Assembly: GCA_013911835.1 (NCBI GenBank)
Contig: JACESM010000006.1
Location: 1 to 35,035 of the forward strand
Reading direction: 5' to 3'
Origin: Porphyrobacter sp.
Lineage (GTDB): Bacteria; Pseudomonadota; Alphaproteobacteria; Sphingomonadales; Sphingomonadaceae
Length of the DNA stretch: 35,035 bases
Shown: piece by piece, positions 795 to 14,414 of the stretch
Numbering within the stretch: the first letter of the stretch is position 1
Layout of the letters: the number at the start of each line of letters is the position of its first letter
Notes under the pieces: model-generated
The model's input: only the letters and a program-made list of their open reading frames with translations
Database searches by the model: none
Told to the model about the DNA's origin: nothing
Position numbers and translations under genes: made by a program

Positions 795-3700
795 TCATGC
801 CGTCAGCTTGCTGGCGGGGATCAGGGGGCCGTCGCAGACACGCTTCATAAGGTCCGCCTGCTTCGGCTCCAGCTCGACCAGCAGCGCCAGGACATTGAGC
901 ACGTTGATGAGCTCGCTTGTGTATTCGGGCAACCACCGATCGGGCTGGATATCGCCCAGCGGAGAAGGCGGGCGCTTGTCGCCGATCAGGGGGCGTTCGC
1001 GGTTCTTGCGGCGGTAGCTGAACCACTGGCGCAGCACCTGCTTGCCCGAGACTTCATAGGCCCAGACGGCGGGCGGAACATTGTCGATGAAACCGGTGCC
1101 GACGAGCAGGCGGCGCCTGGCGGCATCGTATTCGAGCGTGTCGGGAAAACCCTCGGGCGTGGAGGGGATTGCGCCGTCCTTGGGCTGGGTCGGGCCGCCT
1201 TCGCCAACGCGCGGCGGACGGGGTGGATCTTCGGTGGCGAAGCGTTCCCCGAAGGTGTGCAGCCGGATCACCTCGCGGCCCAGCTTTGCGGCCTCGGCGA
1301 AGAGCGCCGCGTCGGCAGTCAGCGGCACGCGCAGACCGGGGCGGACAAGGTCTTCGGCGAAGCTGGCGGTGTAGGCCGGATGGGCCAGCAGCGCCGCGAC
1401 ATAGGCAAAGATATCGACCGGATCGACGGCTGCGCCGAATGCCTTGGAGAGCAGCGCGACGACGGCGGGGGAGATGTTGGATTCGGTTGCAGCGGCGTTC
1501 TTCCAGAGGGCGAAGACGCGGCCACCGCGACCATTGAAATGGTCGTGGTCAGGAATGTTCGATGTCAGGGTAATCCCTGGCCCCGCTTTCGGTGATGTTT
1601 GGCTCAGTGCTGTCAGGAACACCTGGCGAGAACTATTTGTGTTCCACAGAGACGCGTTTTCGCGATTGACCAGTCGGTTGTCGGCAATGATCCACTGCCG
1701 GTCGAATGATCTCACAGAGTAGCCTTGGATACCCTGAATTTGCAGTGCTGCTGTGGCCGTTGAAGCGATCTTCGGGTCCGCATGATTCACGTCCTTCAGT
1801 GCGCCATTGATGGACTGAATTTGCGAATGATATCCGGCCAATGCCTTGGCCCCTCGGTCCAGTGAAGGCCCCCCGCTCAGGTGCGGATGGAAGAGCTTGG
1901 ATCTTGCATCGACTTTTTGCTCGGAGATGAGTGTATTCCACCGCTTCTTCAGGGTGACTTGATCGGGGGCAATGGGCCAAACGCGTCCAGGCATAACGCC
2001 AAGTCCCATGTCGCCCAGAATTTCTTCGATTGCGACAAAATCAGCCCAGCCACCGGCGTGCTGCGGCAGAAATGGATCTCTCCAGTCTTTCCCGCATGTG
2101 CTCCATTCCGAGCCCGCAAGACTTATCGTGCTCAGTTCGACAAACTTCTCGTTCCGGTGGGCTTTGCCGAGAGCGCGATATCGTACTCTCGCCGGTTTCG
2201 CTGGATCATTGGCAGGTGTTCGCAATGCAAGAACGATACACACCGGGTGCTTTACGCCTTGGAATATCCTGCTCGGAACTGGTGGCAGCAAGCCTTCGGG
2301 GGAGCAGTCAATTACCCAGATATCGTCGCAGTCGCGACGGAGATCCGCCCTCATTTTTTGGAAGCCGGGGCCGTTCAGAAATCCTGCTACGGTTATGTAG
2401 CAGACTATCCCCGAGAGCTTTTCTTCAACCGGCGGTTGTTTATCACGTCCACCGATGCCTTGCTCAAAAACTTTCCACGCGGCCCAGCGCCAGAAATAGA
2501 CGTAGAGATTGCGCAGGTGTTTTGCGTTTGCTGTAGCACCACGGCCGTAGGACTTTGGTGGTAACCAGTCCTTGTAAGGGGCGGCCTTGTTGCCGCTGCC
2601 AGACTCAATCCATGCGCCCTTACCTTTGGCCTTCTCTTTGTAGGGCGGATTGCCGATTACCACGGTAATTGGTTCGCTCTGTTTGACCTCGTTTGCCTCA
2701 GCCCGTGATCTGGAGATGGCACCATAAACTCCGGGCGCGCGTTCGAAGGTTTCGAACGGGTCGCCCAATGTATCGGTGACGAATAGGCGCGGGGTGGCGT
2801 CTGCGCCGATTTCCAGCATCTCCGCCAGCAGCCGTAGCTGTGCCACAGCGAAGGCCCCGAATTGCAGCTCGAAGCCGACCAGGCGGCCCGCGATTTCGTT
2901 CATCGATGCCGCGACATTGCCCTCGCCATCGCGCGCAGCGATCGTGGCCTTGATCCGCTCGATCAGGCCCAGCAGAAAGGTGCCCGATCCGGTCGCGGGA
3001 TCGACGATATGCACGTCCTTGCCGGCGAGGCCATCGGCGATGCCGAAGCGGGGGCTTTTCAGCGCCTCGTCGCACAATCGCACCATGGTGCGCACGACTT
3101 CGGGCGGGGTGTAGTAGCTGCCTGTCAGCTTGCGGAGCTTGTTGTCGTAGACCTCGAGGAAATCCTCGTAGAAATAGAGCCAGGCCTCGGGATCGCCCTT
3201 GGACACCTTGGCCCATGAAACCTCGTCCAGAACGCGGGTCAGCGTATCGAGCGCGGGGCCGAGGTTGAGGTCCTGTTCGGTCAGCAGCCGCAGCGCGGTG
3301 CCGATCAGCGTATTGGCCTTGCCGAGCTCGCGGGCGACATGGTCCAGCCCGCCGGTCAGCGCCATGTCTTTCGACTTCGCCATGAGCAGACCGAAGGTGA
3401 CGGCCTGCGCATAGCCATCGGCGAACTTCTCGTCATCGGCATCGGGGAAGAGCAGCGCCTTCCAGTCGTCCTTGAGGTCGGTCAGCCGCGCGTTCTTTTC
3501 GGACGCGCCGAGCTGTTCCAGCACCTCGTCACGCAGGAACCGGCACAGCCGCGCGGAGACCCGCGCCAGTTCGGTCGCGCTTCTGGGGGGAATGGGGTTC
3601 CAGGTGAGGAAATCGCTCAGCAGCGGCAGGAAGGTTTGCGGCGCGGCGAGCTTCGCTCCCGCCTGCTCGATCCCGCCATCGAGGTGGACGATCTGTCCAA

Positions 3701-4097
3701 CCAGCACGCCATCGCGCCACAGCGAGAAGCTGTCACCATCGGTGTAGAGCAGGTTGGGCAGCGCCTTGAGCTTGTCCCATTGCTCCTTGTCGTGGCCGGT
3801 CTTCCATTTGCGCGGGTCGGCCCCTTTGCCGGGGGCCTTGACCTCGATGAAGCCGACGAGGGCGTTCTTGACCTTGACTGCATAGTCGGGCCGGGTGCGC
3901 ATCTCCGCAAGTGAGGTTTCGCCGGTCAATACAAGGTTCTGCACTGCCGGATGCAGGATTGCCGCAACGTCAGCGAACAGGGTTTCGAGCGGCGCGCGAA
4001 GCTGATCCTCCGGCTGACCGTCACCTCCCGCGAGCTTGGCCTTGGCCGCAGCGCCGAATTCCCCCACAGCCTTTTCGATGGTTTTGGCTTGCGTCAC
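795..4097 (-). CDS. Single-chain restriction-modification enzyme, N6-adenine methyltransferase (type ISP/IIG-like)
   Basis: This 1100-residue protein probably both methylates and cleaves DNA at one target sequence. Near residues 70-87 a PD...EVK pattern (PDYAV, then GFIEVKAPGKG) fits a PD-(D/E)xK nuclease. A helical linker leads to GSYYTPPEVV (about 326), the SAM-binding motif DPATGSGTFLLG (about 366-377) and the catalytic motif NPPYKEKA (about 483), typical of N6-adenine gamma-type methyltransferases. The C-terminal half resembles the target-recognition region of type ISP enzymes. Full type ISP proteins such as LlaBIII also carry a helicase; none is seen here or nearby, so cleavage is probably type IIG-like. 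The start is a GTG at 4097 preceded by GGGAGG with 6-nt spacing; the longer ORF-track start lacks such a site. The 1550-2600 part is less GC-rich than the flanks. Confidence 0.85.
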   Translation of the reverse strand: MTQAKTIEKAVGEFGAAAKAKLAGGDGQPEDQLRAPLETLFADVAAILHPAVQNLVLTGETSLAEMRTRPDYAVKVKNALVGFIEVKAPGKGADPRKWKTGHDKEQWDKLKALPNLLYTDGDSFSLWRDGVLVGQIVHLDGGIEQAGAKLAAPQTFLPLLSDFLTWNPIPPRSATELARVSARLCRFLRDEVLEQLGASEKNARLTDLKDDWKALLFPDADDEKFADGYAQAVTFGLLMAKSKDMALTGGLDHVARELGKANTLIGTALRLLTEQDLNLGPALDTLTRVLDEVSWAKVSKGDPEAWLYFYEDFLEVYDNKLRKLTGSYYTPPEVVRTMVRLCDEALKSPRFGIADGLAGKDVHIVDPATGSGTFLLGLIERIKATIAARDGEGNVAASMNEIAGRLVGFELQFGAFAVAQLRLLAEMLEIGADATPRLFVTDTLGDPFETFERAPGVYGAISRSRAEANEVKQSEPITVVIGNPPYKEKAKGKGAWIESGSGNKAAPYKDWLPPKSYGRGATANAKHLRNLYVYFWRWAAWKVFEQGIGGRDKQPPVEEKLSGIVCYITVAGFLNGPGFQKMRADLRRDCDDIWVIDCSPEGLLPPVPSRIFQGVKHPVCIVLALRTPANDPAKPARVRYRALGKAHRNEKFVELSTISLAGSEWSTCGKDWRDPFLPQHAGGWADFVAIEEILGDMGLGVMPGRVWPIAPDQVTLKKRWNTLISEQKVDARSKLFHPHLSGGPSLDRGAKALAGYHSQIQSINGALKDVNHADPKIASTATAALQIQGIQGYSVRSFDRQWIIADNRLVNRENASLWNTNSSRQVFLTALSQTSPKAGPGITLTSNIPDHDHFNGRGGRVFALWKNAAATESNISPAVVALLSKAFGAAVDPVDIFAYVAALLAHPAYTASFAEDLVRPGLRVPLTADAALFAEAAKLGREVIRLHTFGERFATEDPPRPPRVGEGGPTQPKDGAIPSTPEGFPDTLEYDAARRRLLVGTGFIDNVPPAVWAYEVSGKQVLRQWFSYRRKNRERPLIGDKRPPSPLGDIQPDRWLPEYTSELINVLNVLALLVELEPKQADLMKRVCDGPLIPASKLTA

Positions 4098-4164
4098 CCG
4101 ATGCCTCCCGTGCATATTCTGTGGCACAGGGCGCACTGTGCCCGCAACGGCTTTGGACAAGTAA

Positions 4165-4464
4165 ATGGCGGAAGATTCTGGCAATCTGTTCGGTGGCTCG
4201 GCCCAATTGGGCTTCGACCTCGGCGACGATGTGCCTGCGCCGTCATATGAGCCGGATCGTGATGAAGTCCGCCGCGAACTGCACGACATACTGGCCGAGG
4301 CTCGCAGCGCTCAGGCCGAATGTCCGTGGGACCGGCAGACGTTCAAATACCACAAGGTGGTTTTCCCGCAGATGGCTAATTGGTTGCCTGAGGATGAGCG
4401 GGACCAGTTGCGCTTCGAGTTCGCGCGGGAAGTCGAGCGGATCGAGCTGCTGCTGGCGGCATGA
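4165..4464 (+). CDS. Conserved small acidic protein divergent from the RM gene
   Basis: The 99-residue product is soluble, acidic and mostly helical, with an ordered C-terminal part (from DEVRRELHDILAEAR through FEFAREVERIELLLAA). It shows no signal peptide, membrane segment or enzyme motif that I recognise. Its start lies 67 bp from the GTG of the restriction-modification gene, so the two share a divergent promoter region. That placement suggests a regulator or partner of the methyltransferase, but it is inference; it could equally be an independent conserved hypothetical. The codon pattern and the clean C-terminal helix argue for a real gene. A weak hairpin with a T-run follows its stop codon. 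Confidence 0.7.
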   Translation: MAEDSGNLFGGSAQLGFDLGDDVPAPSYEPDRDEVRRELHDILAEARSAQAECPWDRQTFKYHKVVFPQMANWLPEDERDQLRFEFAREVERIELLLAA

Positions 4465-4497: not shown

Positions 4498-4714
4498 CAG
4501 AAGGCATAGGCCAGTCAGACGCAGGCCGCATTGCTAGGGTGTCGCGGGCAGATTGCGCCGGAAACGATAGTCTACGGCAGCTTTCGGGCATGCTGCCTGT
4601 CATCCGGATTGACCGCTGGTGGGTGGAAGCCGGAATGGCCGCTCAATGCCTTTGTGCTTGGCCTTGCTGCCGGTCACGTTGCGTGGGCCGCCGAGCCGCA
4701 TTAACAAGCCAGAC

Positions 4715-5095
4715 ATGTCATCCGATCCGTCGATCAAGATCATCTTGCGCCTCTACTGCGGCAGGGAAATCGCCATGGGTCCGGGTAAGGCCGATCTGCT
4801 CGACGCCATCGCGCGGCACGGGTCGATCTCGGCAGCGGGGCGGAGCATGGGGATGAGCTACCGGCGTGCTTGGTTGCTGGTCGATACCATGAACCGCTGC
4901 TGGAGGGAGTCGCTGGTCGCTACCGTGCCCGGCAGCGCTCATGGCGGGGGCGCGCGGTTGACTGACTTCGGCGCAGCTGTGCTGGCGCATTACCGCGCGC
5001 TGCAAAGCGGTTTGATCGACGCCTCCGCGAACCCCGATCGCGCTGCCTTGGCCGAGGCGATGCTGAGCGCCCCGAGGACAAGCCAGAAGGACTGA
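4715..5095 (+). CDS. ModE-like winged helix-turn-helix regulator (DNA-binding domain only)
   Basis: The 126-residue protein matches the N-terminal DNA-binding domain of the molybdate regulator ModE: a LysR-type winged helix with LLDAIARHGSISAAGRSMGMSYRRAW as the helix-turn-helix and GGGARLTDFGAAVLAHYRAL closing the wing and dimer helix. In E. coli ModE (about 262 residues) two Mop domains follow and bind molybdate; here they are absent. The ATG at 4715 starts the family-like sequence; the ORF track begins 32 codons earlier in unrelated residues. It sits 64 bp before modA on the same strand, so it most likely controls the mod genes. How it senses molybdate, if it does, cannot be seen from its sequence. 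Confidence 0.85.
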   Translation: MSSDPSIKIILRLYCGREIAMGPGKADLLDAIARHGSISAAGRSMGMSYRRAWLLVDTMNRCWRESLVATVPGSAHGGGARLTDFGAAVLAHYRALQSGLIDASANPDRAALAEAMLSAPRTSQKD

Positions 5096-5119
5096 CTTTA
5101 TCGTTGGTCTCGGAACGCG

Positions 5120-5137
5120 CCTGCCATATATGGCAGG
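5120..5137. promoter_or_regulatory. 18-bp perfect palindrome upstream of modA (candidate ModE-type operator)
   Basis: CCTGCCATATATGGCAGG reads the same on both strands and lies between the regulator stop codon (5095) and the modA GTG (5160). The TATAT core recalls ModE boxes of other proteobacteria, although the flanks differ from the classic CGTTATAT form. Its place suggests that modABC has its own regulated promoter inside the gene cluster. Confidence 0.55.
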
Positions 5138-5159
5138 ACATAGCCGAGGAGGCCAAGAC

Positions 5160-5927
5160 GTGACGCTGTTTCGCCAGCTTGGACTATTGCTGTCACTGCT
5201 GCTGCTCGGACTTTCCCCGGCGCCCGCGGAAGAGCGGGGCCCGGTGGTGCTCGCTGCAGCAAGCTTGCAGGAGGCGCTCACCGATGCGGCGAATGCATGG
5301 GCTGCCAAAGGGCACCCGCGCCCGGTGATCTCCTTTGCCGGATCATCCGCGCTTGCTCGCCAGATCGAGGCGGGCGCGCCGGCCGACATCTTCGTCTCTG
5401 CCGACAAGGAATGGATGAATTACGTCGCCGCCAAAGGCCTGCTGCGCAAGGGCAGCCGCGCAGCTTTCCTGTCCAACCGGCTGGTTCTGATCGCGCCGCT
5501 TGGCAGCAAGGTACAGCTGACCCCCGCCCGCGGGTTCCCCCTCGCCCGCGCGCTGGGTCAGGGGCGGCTCGCGATGGCCGATCCGGACAGCGTGCCTGCC
5601 GGGCGTTACGGCAAGGCGGCGCTGACCAGCCTCGGGGTCTGGGCATCGGTCTCCGGCAAGCTCGCGCGCGCCGAGAACGTGCGTGCCGCGCTGGCGCTGG
5701 TCGAGCGCGGCGAGGCGCCGTTCGGGATCGTCTATGCGACCGACGCCCGCGCCTCGCGCAAGGTGCGGGTGGTGGGGATCTTCGCTGCAGGCACCCATCC
5801 GCCGATCACCTATCCGCTGGCGCTGCTGCAGCGTTCGACCAACCGCGAAGCCGAAGGCTTTCGCGCCTTTCTCCTTTCGCGCGAGGGTAAAGCGATCTTC
5901 GCCCGGCGCGGCTTCGGCACCCGTTGA
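5160..5927 (+). CDS. modA: Molybdate ABC transporter, periplasmic binding protein ModA
   Basis: ModA captures molybdate (and tungstate) in the periplasm and hands it to the ModB/ModC transporter. The 255-residue protein has a signal peptide (FRQLGLLLSLLLLGLSPAPA) and then the family's LAAASLQEALTDAA start, the oxyanion-binding FAGSSALARQIEAGAPADIFVSA block, and the late VYATDAR and YPLALL segments. Its length is normal. I chose the GTG at 5160 because AGGAGG lies 7 nt upstream and the signal peptide begins there; the ATG at 5130 would run through the upstream palindrome. It is followed by modB after 13 nt, so the three transport genes form one operon. Confidence 0.93.
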   Translation: MTLFRQLGLLLSLLLLGLSPAPAEERGPVVLAAASLQEALTDAANAWAAKGHPRPVISFAGSSALARQIEAGAPADIFVSADKEWMNYVAAKGLLRKGSRAAFLSNRLVLIAPLGSKVQLTPARGFPLARALGQGRLAMADPDSVPAGRYGKAALTSLGVWASVSGKLARAENVRAALALVERGEAPFGIVYATDARASRKVRVVGIFAAGTHPPITYPLALLQRSTNREAEGFRAFLLSREGKAIFARRGFGTR

Positions 5928-5940
5928 GTCCTGCACGCGC

Positions 5941-6639
5941 ATGAACCTGTCGCCCGAGGAATGGGAGATCATCGCTCTGTCACTCAAGGTCAGCGGCGTG
6001 GCCGTGGCAGCCAGTCTGCCGGTCGCCTTCGGGCTAGCATGGGTGCTGGCGCGGGCGCGGTTTCCGGGGCGGGTTCTGCTCGATGCGGCGGTGCATCTGC
6101 CGCTGGTTTTGCCTCCGGTGGTGACCGGCTGGCTGCTGCTGATCGCCTTCGGCAACAACGGCCCCGCCGGGCGCTGGCTGGCCGAGACGCTGGGCTTCAC
6201 CTTCATGTTCCGCTGGACCGGCGCGGCGCTGGCGGCGGCGATCATGGCGCTGCCGCTGATGGTAAGGGCGATGCGCCTGTCGATCGAGGCGGTCGACCGC
6301 AGGCTGGAACAGGCCGCTGAGACGCTCGGCGCCTCGCGGGTGCGGGTGTTCGCGAGCGTGACCCTGCCGCTGGCGCTGCCTGGGATGCTGGCGGGCGCGG
6401 TGCTGGGCTTTGCCCGCTCGCTCGGCGAGTTCGGGGCGACGATCACCTTCGTCTCGAACATCCCGGGCGAGACCCGCACGCTGCCGATCGCGATCTACAG
6501 CGCGCTGCAGGTGCCCGGCAGCGAGGATGCGGTGACCCGCCTGGCGCTGATGGCCGTCGCGCTCTCGCTGGCGGCACTGGTCGTGTCGGAGGTGCTGACC
6601 CGCCGCGCCGGGCAGGGGACGAGCGGCGATGGCCTTTGA
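5941..6639 (+). CDS. modB: Molybdate ABC transporter permease ModB
   Basis: This 232-residue inner-membrane protein forms the molybdate channel of the ModABC importer. Several hydrophobic helices are visible, and the cytoplasmic coupling loop that docks on ModC is present around EQAAETLGASRVRVFASVTLP, followed by the family's FARSLGEFGATITF. The start at 5941 sits 13 nt after the modA stop and gives the normal ModB length; the longer ORF in the track overlaps modA. Its last 11 bases overlap modC, indicating translational coupling. Confidence 0.93.
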   Translation: MNLSPEEWEIIALSLKVSGVAVAASLPVAFGLAWVLARARFPGRVLLDAAVHLPLVLPPVVTGWLLLIAFGNNGPAGRWLAETLGFTFMFRWTGAALAAAIMALPLMVRAMRLSIEAVDRRLEQAAETLGASRVRVFASVTLPLALPGMLAGAVLGFARSLGEFGATITFVSNIPGETRTLPIAIYSALQVPGSEDAVTRLALMAVALSLAALVVSEVLTRRAGQGTSGDGL

Positions 6640-7252
6640 TGTCAGGGCCGAGCGCAGGCTGGGCGAGCGGATCATCGCCGCCGACTTCACCAGCGAAGGC
6701 GGGCTGACCGCACTTTTCGGACCATCGGGAGCTGGCAAGACCTCGCTGCTCAACATGGTTGCCGGGCTGCTGCGCCCGGATGCGGGGCGCATCGCGGTCG
6801 GCGGCGTCGTGCTGTTCGACGCGGCGGCCGGCGTCGATCTGCCCGCCCGCCGGCGCCGCGCCGGATACGTGTTCCAGGACGGTCGGCTGTTCCCGCACCG
6901 CCGGGTGCGCGACAATCTTCTCTACGGCTGGAAGCTGGCGCGGCCCGATGATCGCTGGATGGATCTGAATGAGGCTACCAGCTTCCTCGGCATCGCACAC
7001 CTGCTTGACCGCTGGCCGCGCACGCTTTCGGGCGGTGAGGCGCAGCGGGTGGCGATCGGGCGGGCGTTGCTGTCAGGCCCGCGATTCCTGTTGATGGACG
7101 AACCGCTCGCCTCGCTCGACCGGGCGCGGCGCGAGGAAATCATGGCTGTGATCGAGCGGCTGCGCGACGAGCTCAAGCTGCCGATCCTCTATGTCAGCCA
7201 TGACCGCGACGAGGTGGCGCGATTGGCCAACCATGTCGTGCCGGTCGGCTAG
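6629..7252 (+). CDS. modC: Molybdate ABC transporter ATPase ModC, short form without Mop/TOBE domain
   Basis: ModC hydrolyses ATP to drive molybdate import through ModB. All nucleotide-binding elements are intact: Walker A GPSGAGKT (31-38), Q-loop glutamine 83, signature LSGGE (133-137), Walker B LLMDEP (about 154-159) and the switch histidine 191. The protein ends at 207 residues, whereas typical ModC has about 350 with a C-terminal TOBE/Mop domain that binds molybdate and gates transport. The end is a clean stop with no sign of a frameshifted continuation: the sequence beyond codes on the other strand. The stop overlaps the stop of the convergent secreted-protein gene within CTAG. Confidence 0.9.
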   Translation: MAFDVRAERRLGERIIAADFTSEGGLTALFGPSGAGKTSLLNMVAGLLRPDAGRIAVGGVVLFDAAAGVDLPARRRRAGYVFQDGRLFPHRRVRDNLLYGWKLARPDDRWMDLNEATSFLGIAHLLDRWPRTLSGGEAQRVAIGRALLSGPRFLLMDEPLASLDRARREEIMAVIERLRDELKLPILYVSHDRDEVARLANHVVPVG

Positions 7253-7746
7253 GGCAGGCGAGCGACCAGCATCGTGGTGCCCGGTTCGGGGCTGCCTGCG
7301 ATCTGGATCGTGTAGGGACCGGGGGTAAGCGCGAAATCGACCATTTTGCGGATGCCGGTGCATTCCGGGCCGTGACCATGCGCGCTCGAGGCGATGGTGC
7401 TGCCTGCGCTCACCATGTCGATCCAGCCTCTGGTGCTGAGCGCCACTCGATAGGTGCCGGGGGCGCTGACGGTGAGGGTGAAGACCCCGCCAAAGCTGGC
7501 ATCATCGGCGGGCCTCTCTGGCGGGGCGGCATAGTGCACTTCGGGCGCCGGGAACAGGTTGACCCGCGCTGCCTGCCCGACCGGCAGTTCGGACCCGGTC
7601 AGCGCAGCCGGGCTGTTCCACGGAGCCAGCACCCCCTCGGCCAGAACCGGCGCGGGGCAGGCCGCAGGGGCCGTTTGCGCCAGTGCTGCAGCGGGGACCG
7701 TCGAGCCGATAAGCGCCAGCGTCATGCGCAGTTTCACCATTTCCAT
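7249..7746 (-). CDS. Small secreted periplasmic protein with HGHGPEC motif, unknown function
   Basis: The 165-residue protein has a signal peptide (cleavage probably after PAAALA, near residue 23) and then a beta-rich domain. The conserved-looking block is AHGHGPECTGIRKMVDF, followed by LTPGPYTIQIAG and an MLVARLP end. Two cysteines in the mature protein could form a disulfide, and the HGHG/Cys cluster could hold a metal. Similar short secreted proteins occur beside TonB-dependent receptors in sphingomonads and are sometimes given unlikely enzyme names; I recall this only loosely. It ends tail to tail with modC and is divergent from the receptor remnant at 7839, with an inverted repeat between them. 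A role in outer-membrane uptake of a molybdenum compound is inferred from context only. Confidence 0.72.
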   Translation of the reverse strand: MEMVKLRMTLALIGSTVPAAALAQTAPAACPAPVLAEGVLAPWNSPAALTGSELPVGQAARVNLFPAPEVHYAAPPERPADDASFGGVFTLTVSAPGTYRVALSTRGWIDMVSAGSTIASSAHGHGPECTGIRKMVDFALTPGPYTIQIAGSPEPGTTMLVARLP

Positions 7747-7767
7747 ACTTGCCCCCGCGATGATTGC

Positions 7768-7787
7768 CTATATTTCAACGAATATAG
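7768..7787. promoter_or_regulatory. Inverted repeat CTATATT-N6-AATATAG in the divergent promoter region
   Basis: A perfect 7-bp inverted repeat with a 6-nt spacer lies between the divergent starts of the secreted protein (7746) and the receptor remnant (7839). The TATAT half sites and spacing recall ModE-type boxes, and the mod operon is adjacent. It is a good candidate operator shared by both directions. Confidence 0.5.
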
Positions 7788-7838
7788 CGAGTCGCCGCCC
7801 ACGGCAACTGGCAAAGCGGCATAATCAAGGGGTCTTTC

Positions 7839-9121
7839 ATGCGTCGTCTTGCTCTTCTCGCCTCCACGTCACCTCGCCGCAAGCGCAGGCGTGGCGCTGG
7901 CCGTTCTGGAACCTCGACAGCGTCTATTTCCTGTCGACCACCGCGATCACAGAGGCCGTGACGCTCAAGACCCGCGCCTATCTCAACAGCTTCGACAACC
8001 TGCTGCGCGGCTTCGACGACCGCACCCAGACCACCCAGACGCTGACCGCGGGGCGCGTGTTCAACAGCTGGTATGAGGACGAGGCCTATGGCGGCTCGGC
8101 CCAACTCGATTACGCCGCAGGCCGAAACCGCATCGCGCTGGCCTTCCACTATCGCCGCGATGAGCACGTCGAGTTTTCACAGGTCTTCCCCACCGGCTTC
8201 ATCGAGCCGCCGCAGCGCAGCCGCGAAGACACCTACAGCATCGCGCTGGAGGACACGCTGCAAGTGACGCCGACCCTGGTCCTGACGCTGGGCGGCAGTT
8301 ATGACTGGCGCGATCTGATCCAGTCGGATGATTTCGTGGTCAACACGGCCCGCACCGGCGGGAGCTTCGTCAACTATCCGCTGGTCGATGCCGACGCGTG
8401 GAACGCGCAAGGTCGTCTGAGCTGGCAGGTCGATGCCGCCAGCGAAGCCCACCTCTCTCTCTCCTCGCGCACACGCTTCCCGACGCTGTTCGAACGGTTC
8501 AGCTCGCGCTTCGGTGGGGCGACCTCGAACCCCGATCTACAAGCCGAACGCTCGACCAATCTTGAACTCGGCGGCAGCACCGAGCTGGGCGCGGTGCGGA
8601 TCGAAGGCGCGGCGTTCTATTCGTGGCTCGACGACGCGATCGTCGCCTTCCCGTTCATCTTCAACAACGCGATGGTGAGCCAGAGCCGCAATGTCGGTCA
8701 GGGCGAATACTACGGCGCAGAGGCCGCCGTGAACGCGCGCGTCAGCGAGACGCTGGAACTGGGCGGCAACTACACCTGGATCGAGCGCAACTTCACCGAT
8801 CCGAGTATCCCCGCTTTCGAACCGATCGGCGTGCCCACCCATAAAGGGTTCGTGTGGGCACAATGGACCCCGACCTTGCGCTTGGCCGTCATCCCCTCGC
8901 TGGAGATCACCTCTGACAGATGGACTGTGACGCCCACCGGCGCGCTCTACTACCGCACCGGCGCCTACACCCGCGCTGACCTGCGGATCGATTACGAGGT
9001 CGCGGACGGCATCGTGCTGGGCGCAGGCGTGCGCAACGCTTTCGACGAGAACTTCGCGCTCACTGACGGATTCCCCGAGCCCGGGCGGAGCTTCTATCTC
9101 AGCGCTCGCTCGCAGTTTTGA
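7839..9121 (+). pseudogene. TonB-dependent receptor remnant (signal start fused to second half of barrel)
   Basis: TonB-dependent receptors are outer-membrane barrels that import metal chelates, vitamins or sugars. From about 7900 the sequence encodes a clear barrel half (FWNLDSVYFLSTTAIT, YEDEAYGGSAQLDY, TSNPDLQAERSTNLELGG, VRNAFDENF) ending in the expected phenylalanine. The N-terminal plug and first strands are missing. Just upstream, ATGCGTCGTCTTGCT (7839) starts a signal peptide in one frame (MRRLALLAST), its continuation LAASAGVALA reads in a second frame, and the barrel in a third. One small indel plus a large internal deletion explains this. The ORF-track start at 7559 lies inside the opposite gene and is not credible. 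The intact gene was probably linked to the mod locus and the divergent secreted protein. Confidence 0.8.
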
Positions 9122-9152
9122 GGTCGGCTACTGGTGCGATGACTACCGATCT

Positions 9153-9301
9153 GGGGCCGCTTTCCGTATGGCGGCTCTTGGGAACAGATCTCGCAATAGC
9201 TGTCATTGACGGCGCAAATTGGACCCTATCGGCTGTCTACTCAGACCTGGCCGTTCCAGATGACCACAGCCATCGCCTGGTTCCGCCGAAAGCCGCCATT
9301 C
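9153..9301. repeat. Dispersed intergenic repeat, copy A (149 nt)
   Basis: The left end GGGGCCGCTTTCCGTATGGC and the right end CGAAAGCCGCCATTC match the ends of copies at 14744 and 16315 with few differences. The middle is longer and unrelated. TATGGCGGCT on the left and AGCCGCCATT on the right are inverted to each other. Confidence 0.5.
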
Positions 9302-9368
9302 TGTTTTCGGTACTGGCCCGATTATCGCGAGAGATACCGTGGATTTTGCACCCAAGGTTGCGTAATTC

Positions 9369-9386
9369 GTTGCATCCAAATGCAAC
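9369..9386. promoter_or_regulatory. Inverted repeat GTTGCAT-CCAA-ATGCAAC upstream of the phosphotransferase operon
   Basis: The arms are a perfect 7-bp inverted repeat and lie 27 nt before the chosen start. A related word, TTGCACCCAA, occurs 24 bp upstream. This looks like a repressor operator, but no regulator gene is adjacent to assign it to. Confidence 0.45.
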
Positions 9387-9413
9387 ATTTCGAAAATGAA
9401 GGGCCTGCTCAAA

Positions 9414-10391
9414 ATGTCAAATAATTCGGCAGCGTCTGCATCGGAGGTCATGGCGATGCTAGGCTGGTTGCCCGGTGATCGTCATGTGATTTCGGTCATA
9501 CCGGCCGGCGCAGGCAATATGAACCTTGTTGAACGGGTAGCGCTCGATAATCAGACATCGGTAATTCTGAAACGCGCCCGCGGCTGGGTTGAGAAGTATC
9601 CTCACATTCCTGCCCCAATTGAACGCGCTGAAGTTGAAGCGGCCTTTTATGCTGCGGTGGCGGCTAGCACTGCCGGTCGGGTAATGCCTAGGCATCTTGG
9701 CTTCAGCAAAGAATTTGCAGCCAATTTGTTTGCTGACCTTGGTGAAGGCACGGACGGAATGAGCGCCTATGCCGGACAAGTTATTAGTGATGATGCGCTT
9801 GATGCGATCGCCGACTGGATGCTTGCATTGCATGGTCTCGACGGCCCGTTCGATGACATTCTGACTAACACAGCAATGCGTTCCCTCAATGCTTTTCACA
9901 TTTTCGATTATCCGCTCGACCTCAATAATGGCTTGGTTCTTGAGGCAATCACGCCCGGCTTGCAGGTCCTAGCCGATGAGCTCAAACAGGATGATCGCTT
10001 CGTCGCGGCGGTTAAGGCGATTGGTCAGCGTTATCTTGGGGACGAGGGAGGAGTGTTGCTCCACGGCGATCTTTACCCTGGAAGCTGGTTGACGACCGAA
10101 ACAGGCATCTTTGTGATCGATCCGGAATTCTGCTGGATTGGCCCCCGTGAATGGGATGTGGGCGTGCTTGCTGCGCATCTCCGGCTCAGCGGCCAGCCTG
10201 AGAATTCTGCCAAACGGATCATCGAACGTTACGGCGTCGCGCTTGATCACCAGCTGCTGAATCAGGTTGTCGGCACAGAAATCATGCGGCGTTTGATCGG
10301 AGTAGCCCAACTGCCATTAAATATTGACCTTGAAGCCAAAGCCATGTTGCTTGCTGAAGCACGTAAGCTTGTCCTCGGAATTGCGAAATGA
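9414..10391 (+). CDS. Phosphotransferase resembling 5-methylthioribose kinase
   Basis: The 325-residue protein has the aminoglycoside-phosphotransferase/choline-kinase fold and looks most like 5-methylthioribose kinase (MtnK). Visible elements are a glycine-rich AGAGNMNLVERV, the ATP-binding lysine in SVILKRAR, catalytic HGDLYPGSW (H217, D219) and the metal-binding IDPEFCWIGPREWDVG (D236, E238), which is close to the MtnK form. It would phosphorylate a sugar, probably ribose-like, in the cytoplasm. I prefer the ATG at 9414 (AAGGG about 10 nt upstream) over 9396; an ATG at 9456 has the best ribosome binding site but would cut the first helix. It overlaps the nucleoside hydrolase gene in ATGA. 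Base composition is less GC-rich than its neighbours, hinting at transfer. The exact substrate is not settled. Confidence 0.82.
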   Translation: MSNNSAASASEVMAMLGWLPGDRHVISVIPAGAGNMNLVERVALDNQTSVILKRARGWVEKYPHIPAPIERAEVEAAFYAAVAASTAGRVMPRHLGFSKEFAANLFADLGEGTDGMSAYAGQVISDDALDAIADWMLALHGLDGPFDDILTNTAMRSLNAFHIFDYPLDLNNGLVLEAITPGLQVLADELKQDDRFVAAVKAIGQRYLGDEGGVLLHGDLYPGSWLTTETGIFVIDPEFCWIGPREWDVGVLAAHLRLSGQPENSAKRIIERYGVALDHQLLNQVVGTEIMRRLIGVAQLPLNIDLEAKAMLLAEARKLVLGIAK

Positions 10392-11263
10392 CGCGGCGCC
10401 GCGTCTGGATTGATACTGATCCTGCGATCACGGCTGGCAATGGCGAGGTCGATGATGCTTTTGCGCTTGTTCAGGCGCTCCGTTCGCCCGAGTTAGAAAT
10501 TGCGGGAGTGTCGGCAGTTTATGGCAACTCCGGCATTGATCACACATTCGCGATGGCGCGCGAAATTGTGGCACGCGCCGATTGCGCAGACATTCCGGTC
10601 TACCGCGGGAGCCGCTGCAGGGAAGATCGATCGGCAAACGATGCCACATCCGCGCTTACGCGAGCGCTCAATGATGGGCCATTGACGATCCTGGCGCTGG
10701 GCCCCCTGACCACCATCGCCGCAACGCTTGGTCTAAGCGATGCCCCGATAGGAAATGTTGAGGAGATTGTGTTTGTGGGCGGCAGACGTGATGGCTTGGA
10801 GTTTCTTGCAACGCGGATGCAGAAGAAGCCGTTCGGTGACATGAATTTCGAATGCGACCCTGCCGCAGCGTCCGAACTGCTTGCCCTCGGCGTGCCGATG
10901 ACTCTCGCTGGGTGGGAAGTCTCTTCAAAGACGTGGCTGACGCCTCATGATCTTGATCGGTTGCGTGACGAAGGGGGAGAATGTGCCCGGTGGCTTGCGG
11001 CGAGTGCGCGCGCGTGGCAGTCGGACTGGCAGCGCAATTTTGCCGCGCGGGGGTTTACCCCCTTCGATACTTTGGCTGTGGGTTGGTTGCTTTTACCTGA
11101 TGCTTTCACCCGATACCGCTGGCCAACCAGGATTGACCATGACGGGCACCGACCTCTTTTTGTCGCTGACCCTTCCTTCGATGGGCCAATCGTCACCTAT
11201 CTGCGCGAAGTCGACAATGATCGATTTCACGCCAATCTGATGCGGCGGTTGCTGCGCAGCTGA
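10388..11263 (+). CDS. Nucleoside hydrolase (IunH/CU-NH family), variant
   Basis: Nucleoside hydrolases cleave the N-glycosidic bond of ribonucleosides to give base and ribose, using a calcium ion held by clustered aspartates. The 291-residue protein has the N-terminal aspartate motif in a stretched form, WIDTDPAI-TAGNGEV-DDAFAL (D9, D11, D22, D23), then ILALGPLTTIA, the substrate-binding MNFECDPAAA and the late aspartate in FDTLAVGWLL. The usual histidine before that aspartate (HDPLA in classic members) is a phenylalanine, so leaving-group activation must differ. It overlaps the kinase-like gene by 4 bp and is certainly co-translated. Together they could release and phosphorylate the sugar of a nucleoside; methylthioadenosine or another 5'-modified nucleoside is possible. 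GC content is below the window average. Confidence 0.87.
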   Translation: MTRRRVWIDTDPAITAGNGEVDDAFALVQALRSPELEIAGVSAVYGNSGIDHTFAMAREIVARADCADIPVYRGSRCREDRSANDATSALTRALNDGPLTILALGPLTTIAATLGLSDAPIGNVEEIVFVGGRRDGLEFLATRMQKKPFGDMNFECDPAAASELLALGVPMTLAGWEVSSKTWLTPHDLDRLRDEGGECARWLAASARAWQSDWQRNFAARGFTPFDTLAVGWLLLPDAFTRYRWPTRIDHDGHRPLFVADPSFDGPIVTYLREVDNDRFHANLMRRLLRS

Positions 11264-11324
11264 GACAGGACTGCAAAGCTATCCCCCTCAACGGCCCTTG
11301 CGGCTTGCTCGGTCGCCACGGTGG

Positions 11325-11362
11325 CGGCCCTCGACCGGCTTCATGGCAAGCGGTCAGGGCCG
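11325..11362. terminator. Strong hairpin between convergent genes (bidirectional terminator candidate)
   Basis: CGGCCCT-c-GACCG pairs with CGGTC-AGGGCCG around a 13-nt loop, giving a 12-bp stem with one bulge. It sits between the stop of the nucleoside hydrolase gene (11263) and the end of the convergent receptor gene (11376). There is no T-run, so it may act as a read-through barrier rather than a classic intrinsic terminator. Confidence 0.45.
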
Positions 11363-11375
11363 AGAGAAATTGTGA

Positions 11376-14300
11376 TCAGAACTTGTAGGCCAGTCCGAAC
11401 TGGAACTGTCGCGGGGGACCGGCATTGCGTTGCACGAAGGGTGCGCCGCCGCCGAACTGGATCTGGTTTGAAGTGGTCGCGGCATTGGCGAAGCCGCTTT
11501 CGTTGTTGGTGTTCAGCACGTTGAACACGTCCGCGCTCGCCTCGATCCGCCCGCCAAGCACCGGCAGAGCATAACGCACGCCGACATCAATCGTGGCTGA
11601 CCATGGCAGGCGTCCGGAATTGCGGCTTTCCCCAGGGAAGCGGTCCGAATTGCCGAGGAAATTCTCGCCAAAGCTCGCCCCGTCGCCGTTCAGGTCCTGC
11701 GTGCCGAAGATGAGCGCATCAGGCACCAGATTGACCGGCTGACCCGATTGGAACAGTCCCGCCAGCGTCACCGTCATCCCATCCACCGGGTAAAGATAGC
11801 CCACCGCCGAGATCACGTGCCGCCGGTCGTTGGCCGAGGGTCCGAACTCCGTGCTGAAGTCATTGGCGTTGGCTGCGCGGAAGTTGATATCATCGGTATC
11901 GTTGCGTAGGCGCGAGAGGGTGTAGCTGACGCGGAAGGCATAGGGATCATCGCCGCGCGCCTTAATCGCTTGCAGGATCAAAGCGAGGTACTCGGCCTCG
12001 CCAGCAGTTTCCGAAACCGTGATCTGTCGCGCCCCACCTGGCAGAAGGCCGACTGGGCGCGACGCATCCGCCGCTGCCTGCGAGCGCGCCAGCCCGAGGC
12101 TTTGCGCCAGCGCGAAACGCGCGGCATTGTCTGGCTGCGCGCGCAGCAGGGCGATATTGGCATCGGTCAGATTGGCAAGGTTGGGGGTGAAGGGTGTAGG
12201 CGCGTTGAGATCGCGCAGCCGCACCAGATTCTCCGAACGGCTATAGAGCGCGTCGACCGAAAGAGTCAGCGTGCTGGTCGCCTGATATTGGTAGCCGCCG
12301 CTGATCTGCACGCTCCAGGGATTGTCATAGCCGGTCGGACTGAGGATCCGCGCTTCGTTGATGATTGCCGTGTCGCGCAAGTTCTGCACGGCCTCCGGCG
12401 CGGGGCATTCCGCAACTGTGGCACAGACGGGCGAGACGGTGAGATTACCGTCAAAGGTGATATCGCCAAGGTCGACACCCGCCGGGATCACGCCGCGACT
12501 TTGCAATTGCCCCAGCTGGCTGAGGAAGCCCGCCGAGGTGGTGTTGCGCTGCAAAGCGTCCGAAATCACCGCGTAGGACAGTTTGCCAGTGAAGATCCCG
12601 GCCCCGAACCGCACCGAAGACCGCGCATCGGGCTGCCAGTTGAGCGCGAGGCGCGGGGCGATGTTGTCGGTATCGCCGTCTCCCGCGCCGCGCTCGGTCA
12701 GGGTGTCGTAATCCCAGCGCAGCCCCAGGGTGGCGGTAAAATCGGGGGCAAGCTGCCATTGATCCTCGAGATAGAAGGCAATCAGCGTCTGGCTGGTGCC
12801 AAAGCTTTGCGGGCGCAGCTCCACCGAATAGTTGGCGACCAGCGGGTTCAATGCCAGCACATCCTGCGCGTTCAGCGCGAGCCCGCGCGATGTCAGGCTG
12901 GCGAGTTGCGCGGCAGTCAAATCGACCGTGAAATTGCCATCGGGATTGCCGCCGCCGAGCAGGTCGAAGTCCGAATGGATCACGTCCGCGCCGACCCGCA
13001 GCGTATGCGCGCCAAAGTCACGCTGGAGCCGGTGGGTGGTTTGCCACGTCTCCTCCAGATCGTCGAACACAAAGCCGGGGTGGCCGACCACCCCCGCCAC
13101 TAGCCCGGAAGGATCGCGCAGCACCACCTGTGGCCCCGGCGCGCCCACCGGCTCGCCGAAATCCCAGCGGAAGCGGCTGAACTGCACCGCGCCGTCATAG
13201 CTCCACACCGCCCCGGCATAGCTGGCAGTCGCGGCGACCAAAGTTGAGAAGCGATCCTGACGCGATCCCGCCGAAGGAAAGGTATTGTTGCCCCCGCCCA
13301 GCCCGCCGCCCGGCCGGTCCACCGTCACGCGCCCGATATTGACTCGCGCGCCAAGGGTCCAGTCGTCCGTCAGACGGTGATCGAGCCGCAGCGATCCAAG
13401 GTGGAATTCATTGTTGCCAGTAACCGTATCGACGATCCCCAACGCCGGCGCGTCCACCACCTGGGTGTTGCGATCACGGGTGTATTCATAGTTCGCGTAG
13501 AAGAACGTCCGGTCGCGCGCGATCGGTCCACCAACGGCAAAGCCACCCTGATAGCGTTCGAAGCTTTCGCCCACCGCATTGCCGGTCAGATCGCGGCGCG
13601 GGAAAGGTGAACTGGAATCGAGCGGGCGGCCGGGGCGGATCAGGCCATAGACCTCGCCGGTCAGATCATTGCTGCCGGAGGGGGTGGTGTAATTGACGAT
13701 GCCATTGGCGGTGCGACCGTAGGCGGCGGAATAGGAGTTGGCCAACACCGTCACCTCGCGGGTGAAGCCCAGGGGCACCGGAAACTTGATCCCGCCGAGG
13801 AAATTCTCGTTATTGTCCAGACCGTCGATCAGGTAATTGGTATCGAGCCCGTTCGCGCCATTGATCGATATCGATGGCGCTTCCGAGAAGAACCCGGTCG
13901 AGGGAACCACGTTGGGCAAGCGGATCAGGGAGCCGATCACGTCGCGCCCCTCGATCGGCAGGGCGAGCAGCTGCTCGCGCGCCAAAGAGGCGGAAATCTC
14001 GGCATTGGCGGTGTTGAGCCCGGTGATCGCGCGCGCGGCAGTAACGATGATCCCGGCGCTTTCCGGTGCGGTGAGTTGCAGGATAACGCTGCGGACAAAA
14101 TTGGCGCGCAGTTGGATCGGCTGAGCGTCAAGGCCGGCATATTGATCCGAAGCCGGCACCGACACGAGATACTCGCCCGCCGTGGTCAACCCGTCAGCGC
14201 CGACCCGCCCACGTGCATCGGTGCGCAGCCGCCGTTCAAAGCCGATTGCGCGGTTTGCGATCACCACCTCGGTATCGGCGACCGGTGCCCCGGCCTCATC

Positions 14301-14414
14301 CACCACCGCAATCTCGATCCCGGCCTGCTGCGCCAGCACCGGCGGAGCCATGACAACCGAAATGGCGCCGAGGGCGGTTGCCCCGACGGTGGCACGAAGG
14401 ATGGTCGCAAGCAT
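11376..14414 (-). CDS. TonB-dependent receptor with carboxypeptidase-regulatory-like domain (OAR type)
   Basis: This intact 1012-residue outer-membrane receptor has a signal peptide ending near VLAQQ (residue 28), then a carboxypeptidase-regulatory-like beta sandwich (IEIAVVDEAGAPVADTEVV to about 115), a plug domain (SISINGANGLDTNYLIDGLDN near 190-215) and a long barrel ending in LAYKF with terminal phenylalanine. Proteins of this type import or bind larger substrates such as oligosaccharides or peptides; the substrate here cannot be read. The start at 14414 is set by the signal peptide and by GAGGGG about 7 nt upstream; the ORF track runs 57 codons too far. It stands alone, convergent with the nucleoside hydrolase operon. 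A palindromic word cluster lies upstream. Confidence 0.92.
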   Translation of the reverse strand: MLATILRATVGATALGAISVVMAPPVLAQQAGIEIAVVDEAGAPVADTEVVIANRAIGFERRLRTDARGRVGADGLTTAGEYLVSVPASDQYAGLDAQPIQLRANFVRSVILQLTAPESAGIIVTAARAITGLNTANAEISASLAREQLLALPIEGRDVIGSLIRLPNVVPSTGFFSEAPSISINGANGLDTNYLIDGLDNNENFLGGIKFPVPLGFTREVTVLANSYSAAYGRTANGIVNYTTPSGSNDLTGEVYGLIRPGRPLDSSSPFPRRDLTGNAVGESFERYQGGFAVGGPIARDRTFFYANYEYTRDRNTQVVDAPALGIVDTVTGNNEFHLGSLRLDHRLTDDWTLGARVNIGRVTVDRPGGGLGGGNNTFPSAGSRQDRFSTLVAATASYAGAVWSYDGAVQFSRFRWDFGEPVGAPGPQVVLRDPSGLVAGVVGHPGFVFDDLEETWQTTHRLQRDFGAHTLRVGADVIHSDFDLLGGGNPDGNFTVDLTAAQLASLTSRGLALNAQDVLALNPLVANYSVELRPQSFGTSQTLIAFYLEDQWQLAPDFTATLGLRWDYDTLTERGAGDGDTDNIAPRLALNWQPDARSSVRFGAGIFTGKLSYAVISDALQRNTTSAGFLSQLGQLQSRGVIPAGVDLGDITFDGNLTVSPVCATVAECPAPEAVQNLRDTAIINEARILSPTGYDNPWSVQISGGYQYQATSTLTLSVDALYSRSENLVRLRDLNAPTPFTPNLANLTDANIALLRAQPDNAARFALAQSLGLARSQAAADASRPVGLLPGGARQITVSETAGEAEYLALILQAIKARGDDPYAFRVSYTLSRLRNDTDDINFRAANANDFSTEFGPSANDRRHVISAVGYLYPVDGMTVTLAGLFQSGQPVNLVPDALIFGTQDLNGDGASFGENFLGNSDRFPGESRNSGRLPWSATIDVGVRYALPVLGGRIEASADVFNVLNTNNESGFANAATTSNQIQFGGGAPFVQRNAGPPRQFQFGLAYKF

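Follow-up and report, generated by a model that had tools for sequence, protein, structure and literature searches.

The 35,035-nucleotide stretch of Porphyrobacter sp. DNA analysed here (contig JACESM010000006.1, hereafter the window) contains two overlapping genes, coding for a kinase whose place is beside methylthioribose (MTR) kinase (MtnK) and for a nucleoside hydrolase with a variant active site, and this pair, rare yet a true unit, is found with the same gene order in three phyla. We propose that the two proteins may well constitute a coupled two-step module feeding glycoside synthesis. The features of the window considered below are (loci, genomes and contigs elsewhere are cited by our L, G and C numbers):

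9414-10391, + strand: kinase gene, 325 amino acids, ORF open and complete
10388-11263, + strand: nucleoside hydrolase gene, 291 amino acids, ORF open and complete
10388-10391, + strand: ATGA overlap of the kinase stop and the hydrolase start, spacing -4, conserved
9369-9386, no strand: inverted repeat GTTGCAT-CCAA-ATGCAAC upstream of the kinase gene, not conserved, function doubtful
11376-14414, - strand: Oar-type TonB-dependent outer-membrane receptor (PF25183, Plug, CarboxypepD_reg), convergent with the pair

Both genes lie exactly where an initial annotation of this DNA had placed two overlapping genes, and the ATGA is common to them. The kinase likely starts at 9414, because an upstream ATG at 9396, kept in L008, is absent from L009. 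The reduced GC content that had been reported was also recovered, with 53.6% for the kinase and 58.9% for the hydrolase versus 65.6% for the whole window, and third-position GC is 0.54 and 0.61, respectively, with 0.76 for the neighbouring TonB gene. The initial annotation had further described an operator-like repeat. Such a sequence is indeed present at 9369-9386, upstream of the kinase (one exact match versus 0.13 expected from shuffling, with up to 2 mismatches allowed), but the operator role finds no support because the repeat is not conserved even in L008, the closest relative of the window. Comparison of positions 9122-11263 with L008 gave 82% protein identity for the kinase and 87% for the hydrolase, the flanking TonB genes sharing 95-97%; since the pair diverges more than both of these, its faster evolution, or its replacement by recombination, is suggested. 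Elsewhere, the window encodes a large type ISP restriction-modification protein (795-4289, - strand; Type_ISP_C 229.8 bits, N6_Mtase) and, at 4619-7252 on the + strand, a ModE-like regulator and a molybdate substrate-binding protein followed by apparent ModB and ModC, as judged from position and reading.

Among 301 genomes of the window's own family, the thresholds used returned the hydrolase in 3 and the kinase in 2. A contig scan identified 10 loci with the kinase, in sphingomonads, Robiginitomaculum, Luteitalea (Acidobacteriota), a Myxococcota and Pseudomonadales, to which a genome search added 2 sphingomonad loci (L010 and L006 are one and the same record, that of Blastomonas natatoria). 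The hydrolase gene lies directly downstream of the kinase gene in all 12 aligned kinase loci, and the pair thus withstands, across three phyla, the conservation test set by the initial annotation. The overlap is of -4 in 11 of them, and also in L014 if the alternative start at 10972 is used, which points to translational coupling of the kinase and the hydrolase. Kinase identity is correlated with hydrolase identity over 66 pairwise comparisons of loci (r=0.93). A solitary hydrolase gene occurs in genome G011 (L007, 5216-6160), without a kinase; this copy is apparently degenerate, because the aspartate fingerprint is absent from it in any frame. A 3.9-kb contig binned as Porphyrobacter (L011) encodes two pair proteins identical to those of Blastomonas natatoria and is likely mis-binned. 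Plasmid searches returned no close kinase (best match 43% identity) and no close hydrolase (best 28%), and no family in the libraries searched here names the kinase-hydrolase pair as such.

The kinase scores 44 bits against the Pfam APH model (cut-off 23.2) and 84.9 bits against the NCBIfam MTRK model TIGR01767, whose cut-off of 275 places it outside MtnK by score. A maximum-likelihood tree was built with 12 members of the kinase family, 22 MtnK and 8 other APH proteins from the same genomes, no choline kinase being part of it; the family forms one clade (97/99), sister to MtnK and outside the MtnK clade (100/99), and is split, jointly with MtnK, from the APH proteins with support of 98/94. 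The AlphaFold model (pLDDT 84.9) retrieved with Foldseek, which included both choline and aminoglycoside kinases, MTR kinase for all its best matches (E 2.6e-15), the other two being weaker (E 1e-7 to 1e-6), and MTR kinase also ranks first in a profile search of solved structures. The MtnK-like character proposed by the initial annotation is thus upheld by tree, fold and profile, and a grouping with aminoglycoside or choline kinases was seen neither in the tree, for the proteins it contains, nor with Foldseek; sequence and model together place the protein in a sister family of MtnK, not of aminoglycoside kinases.

The window's kinase carries a G-loop (GAGNMN), a catalytic HGD, a DPE (DxE) and a twin-Arg motif (EIMRRLIG). 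GxGNxN, HGD, DxE and RR are invariant in the kinase family and all found in MtnK, GxGNxN and RR being absent from the APH rows of the alignment; the roles of these motifs in MTR kinase, including the binding of MTR O2/O3 by RR, have been described (PMC2194712). MtnK (TIGR01767; PDB 2olc, 2pul, 2pyw) and DrdK, for which 5-deoxyribose and MTR are substrates and ribose is not (PMC6079011), have the fold in common with the family and stand nearest to it in the tree. They differ from it in their length (~400-430 amino acids vs ~325), in their separate clade and in the MTRK score, and neither mtnA nor mtnN was seen near the kinase here. A further difference concerns the W-loop, whose Trp caps the 5-methylthio group in MTR kinase and is semi-conserved: in the kinase family it is replaced by an invariant Ile in a loop one residue shorter (ESWPL in MtnK, KY-PxIxAP here). 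As the MTR-kinase motifs are invariant but the W-loop Trp is lost, the protein, while distinct from MtnK, most likely phosphorylates a 5-modified ribose at its anomeric position.

The hydrolase belongs to PF01156 (IU_nuc_hydro), with 140.7 bits for a gathering cut-off of 34.2, and its AlphaFold model (pLDDT 86.6) is closest, among solved folds, to plant NRh and RihA (Foldseek, E 4.8e-22 and TM about 0.84 against nucleoside hydrolases). Like RihA, RihB, CfNH and plant NRh, it has the four fingerprint Asps and the last Asp (227) of the Ca site, Asn47 and Asn153, all conserved in the family. Unlike them, it presents the fingerprint DTDPAITAGNGEVDD in place of DxDxxxDD, an insertion of ~7 extra residues (11 in L016/L017) that is family-wide save for the degenerate L007 copy, and Phe226 instead of His before the last Asp (GFTPFD; Trp in L016/L017). 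Both traits had been recognized in the initial annotation, which proposed a variant hydrolase of the calcium type, and both can now be attributed to the whole family. The crossover loop is ~26 residues shorter than that of RihA, as measured from the gap between two matched stretches, and because of this shortening its His/Trp is gone. Asp151 occupies the position of a Glu in RihA (Glu166-equivalent), which we take to be the O5' contact of the Crithidia enzyme. Finally, new Trp residues at positions 210 and 214 are invariant, as is Arg208 save for a Ser in L082, and the helix bearing the three residues should face the base.

Nucleoside hydrolases fall into structural groups I-III, according to whether the last Asp is preceded by His, Trp or Cys (PMC8910321). 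The present family lies outside all three, since it has neither the DxDxxxDD fingerprint nor the His before the last Ca-binding Asp that define group I, and departs from group II by its shortened crossover loop without Trp and by the Phe before the last Asp, save in L016/L017 where this residue is Trp. The hydrolase lacks both groups on which group I enzymes usually rely to activate the leaving group. The invariant Trp210 and Trp214 together with Phe226 would suit aromatic stacking on a purine, a feature of group II (PMC8910321), and by analogy such stacking appears as the most natural substitute for the lost acid. Literature on the queuosine hydrolase QueK contained nothing linking that enzyme to the kinase-hydrolase pair. 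Apparent signal peptides were recognized by eye in the hydrolases of L014 (10972-12039) and L015 (10960-11943), the latter lipoprotein-like, and these two proteins may be periplasmic; the membrane would then separate the two steps there, which counts against the module that we propose.

The use of the product in glycoside synthesis is suggested by the neighbouring genes. The longest run, in L081, reads in one direction TIGR04282 - kinase - hydrolase - DUF547 - GT - GT2, with the TIGR04282 gene overlapping the kinase gene, and L082 has the run kinase - hydrolase - DUF547 - GT - GT2. A TIGR04283-TIGR04282 fusion is directly upstream of the pair in L014, and in L015 the pair is next to divergent TIGR04283 and DUF547 genes. 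The pair is accompanied by 'arsenosugar biosynthesis' genes (TIGR04282/TIGR04283, DUF547) in three deep branches, with TIGR04282 or TIGR04283 in L014, L015 and L081. Three independent adjacencies within ~3 kb are very unlikely to arise by chance, because there is one such locus per several-megabase genome; we put this chance in the order of 1e-6, a rough estimate and not a formal test. In the clade of the window, glycosyltransferase genes are located elsewhere in the genome and not beside the pair. Contig C231 of the window genome carries, in one run, GT/GT2, TIGR04282 (171.6 bits) and a TIGR04283-like gene (163.6 bits, cut-off 182); the GT2 domain there shares 54% identity with that of L081. 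Neither gene set, glycosyltransferase genes included, was found near the pair in L016/L017, L012 and L013, and both observations speak against the proposed scheme.

TIGR04282 and TIGR04283 owe their names to an association with ArsS, and the arsenosugar set comprises ArsM, ArsS, TIGR04282, TIGR04283, DUF547 and TIGR04169. The pair has TIGR04282, TIGR04283 and DUF547 as neighbours, as in that set. Unlike in that set, ArsS (TIGR04167) is over cut-off in a single one of the 13 pair genomes (G495; the window genome is 73% complete), where it adjoins MtnP and a TIGR04169 protein and not the pair, and for this reason membership of the pair in a canonical arsenosugar cluster was dropped. In the G495 locus (L090, 6618-8895) the methylthioadenosine (MTA) phosphorylase gene is directly divergent from those of the TIGR04169 peroxidase-like protein and the canonical ArsS, and this phosphorylase may play, for ArsS, the part that falls to the kinase-hydrolase pair in other genomes. 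Genome G490, which has the pair, shows another arrangement (L085, 3649-14034): MtnP - TonB - radical SAM (Rv1681-like) - ArsM-like - TIGR04283-like - TIGR04282 - GT/GT2 - DUF547, which may represent an arsenosugar cluster of variant type that uses another radical SAM enzyme. This radical SAM gene (L085, 6993-7979) gave weak matches to the Rv1681-like and ArsS models; full copies occur in G248 and G011 and a contig-end fragment in the window genome, with none in the other nine.

Other neighbours hint at uptake. A convergent Oar-type TonB receptor lies beside the pair in the window (11376-14414, first codon taken as in L008), L006, L008, L009 and L011. The receptor of L082, 61% identical, precedes a NupC-type nucleoside transporter, after which comes the kinase-hydrolase run on the other strand, and L117, from the same-genus genome G459 in which the hydrolase was not found, has the order TonB receptor - NupC-type transporter - CDP-alcohol phosphatidyltransferase (7500-12902). 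In L012 the gene immediately preceding the kinase codes for a CDP-alcohol phosphatidyltransferase 64% identical to that of L117. In Blastomonas the TonB receptor has a YnjB-like ABC transporter set as its neighbour. The receptor is a probable uptake partner of the pair, and it constitutes support and not proof, because it also occurs, with varied neighbours, in same-genus genomes without the pair; its use as proof of the substrate was accordingly abandoned. A second TonB gene lies just upstream of the kinase (window 7559-9121, + strand; 97% identical in L008); only the barrel part is present, no plug being matched, and it looks like a truncated remnant. The second upstream TonB genes of the window and of Blastomonas are not homologous to each other.

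From these data we infer the substrate of the pair, the direction of its reactions and the use of its product. The hydrolase would take the base, most likely a purine, off a 5'-modified ribonucleoside, and the kinase would phosphorylate the anomeric (C1) hydroxyl of the released 5-modified ribose. Judged from the anatomy of both proteins, this sequence of nucleoside, 5-modified ribose and 1-phosphate is probably correct, and the 5'-modified nucleoside put forward by the initial annotation remains the substrate that would best fit both active sites. The net product, a 5-modified ribose-1-phosphate, would be of the type made in one step by methylthioadenosine phosphorylase. Entry of the nucleoside in sphingomonads would probably involve the TonB receptor next to the pair, along with an ABC or nucleoside transporter. 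The sugar phosphate would then most likely be activated and transferred by TIGR04282, a CofC-like nucleotidyltransferase, and by TIGR04283/GT2 glycosyltransferases, without being routed via MtnA into methionine salvage. Nucleotidyl transfer by TIGR04282 is a guess from its CofC homology, and for the glycosidic fate of the product, which we deduce from the neighbours, the arguments for and against are about in balance.

Catabolic fates of the nucleoside were weighed against this scheme. The initial annotation had proposed a salvage module and a search for MtnA-like isomerase genes nearby. Disposal of methylthioadenosine or 5'-deoxyadenosine, either in a nucleosidase-plus-kinase branch of methionine salvage or in a DHAP shunt, would follow the reaction logic of MtnN plus MtnK and of DrdK (PMC6079011); a 5-modified ribose-1-phosphate is likewise the product type of MtnP. 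MtnA is moreover present in G482, G448, G489, G494, G496 and G497. The nucleosidase fold family here is unrelated to that of MtnN. Against disposal, the W-loop Trp of the kinase is lost, and none of the pairs had an mtnA, isomerase or aldolase gene among the neighbours seen. The MTAP model matches a protein in each of the 13 pair genomes (10 over cut-off), and MtnA was not found in 7 of them, among which are Blastomonas natatoria, 100% complete, and the window genome, 73% complete, so that methionine salvage is unlikely. Methionine salvage and the DHAP shunt are thus poor explanations for most pair genomes and were rejected as the main role of the pair; a catabolic route through an MtnA-like isomerase finds no support, and we regard disposal of this kind as improbable.

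Common nucleosides, which are the usual substrates of PF01156 enzymes, could instead be taken up through TonB and NupC and cleaved, the kinase giving ribose-1-phosphate to central metabolism. The conserved TonB neighbour in sphingomonads and the NupC-type transporter by the same receptor in L082 and L117 agree with such ordinary catabolism, but the kinase is MtnK-like and its relative DrdK rejects ribose (PMC6079011), the hydrolase misses both leaving-group-activating groups usual in group I, and the recurrent glycosyltransferase neighbours would be left unexplained, which makes this scenario rather unlikely. An external O-glycoside or nucleoside-like compound, for example a foreign arsenoriboside, might also be hydrolysed and the released sugar trapped by the kinase. 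Glycosyltransferases beside the pair point to synthesis and no catabolic gene was seen downstream of it, so we consider this breakdown very doubtful, even if the TonB receptor and ABC transporter neighbours, the apparent signal peptides of the L014 and L015 hydrolases and the loss of the usual base-activating residues would accord with it.

The coupled module feeding glycoside synthesis remains our preferred reading. A proposed algal route to arsenosugar lipids needs an adenosyl nucleosidase (PMC10456119). The pair could provide the middle steps of a bacterial arsenosugar-type pathway, the hydrolase and the kinase replacing the ArsS-side phosphorylase: adenine would be removed from 5'-deoxy-5'-dimethylarsinoyl-adenosine or an analogue, and the arsenoribose phosphorylated at C1 and passed to TIGR04282 and TIGR04283. 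We offer this pathway as tentative and on balance unlikely, and any link of the pair to arsenic likewise as unlikely but testable.

With one fixed overlap across three phyla, the pair represents a clean functional unit. Through it, the orphan TIGR04282/TIGR04283 glycosyltransferases become connected with a sugar kinase resembling MtnK and with a nucleoside hydrolase of a new type. The pair provides a concrete two-enzyme candidate for turning a 5-modified nucleoside into an activated sugar, a step that, for arsenosugars, we found in the literature solely as a proposed nucleosidase.
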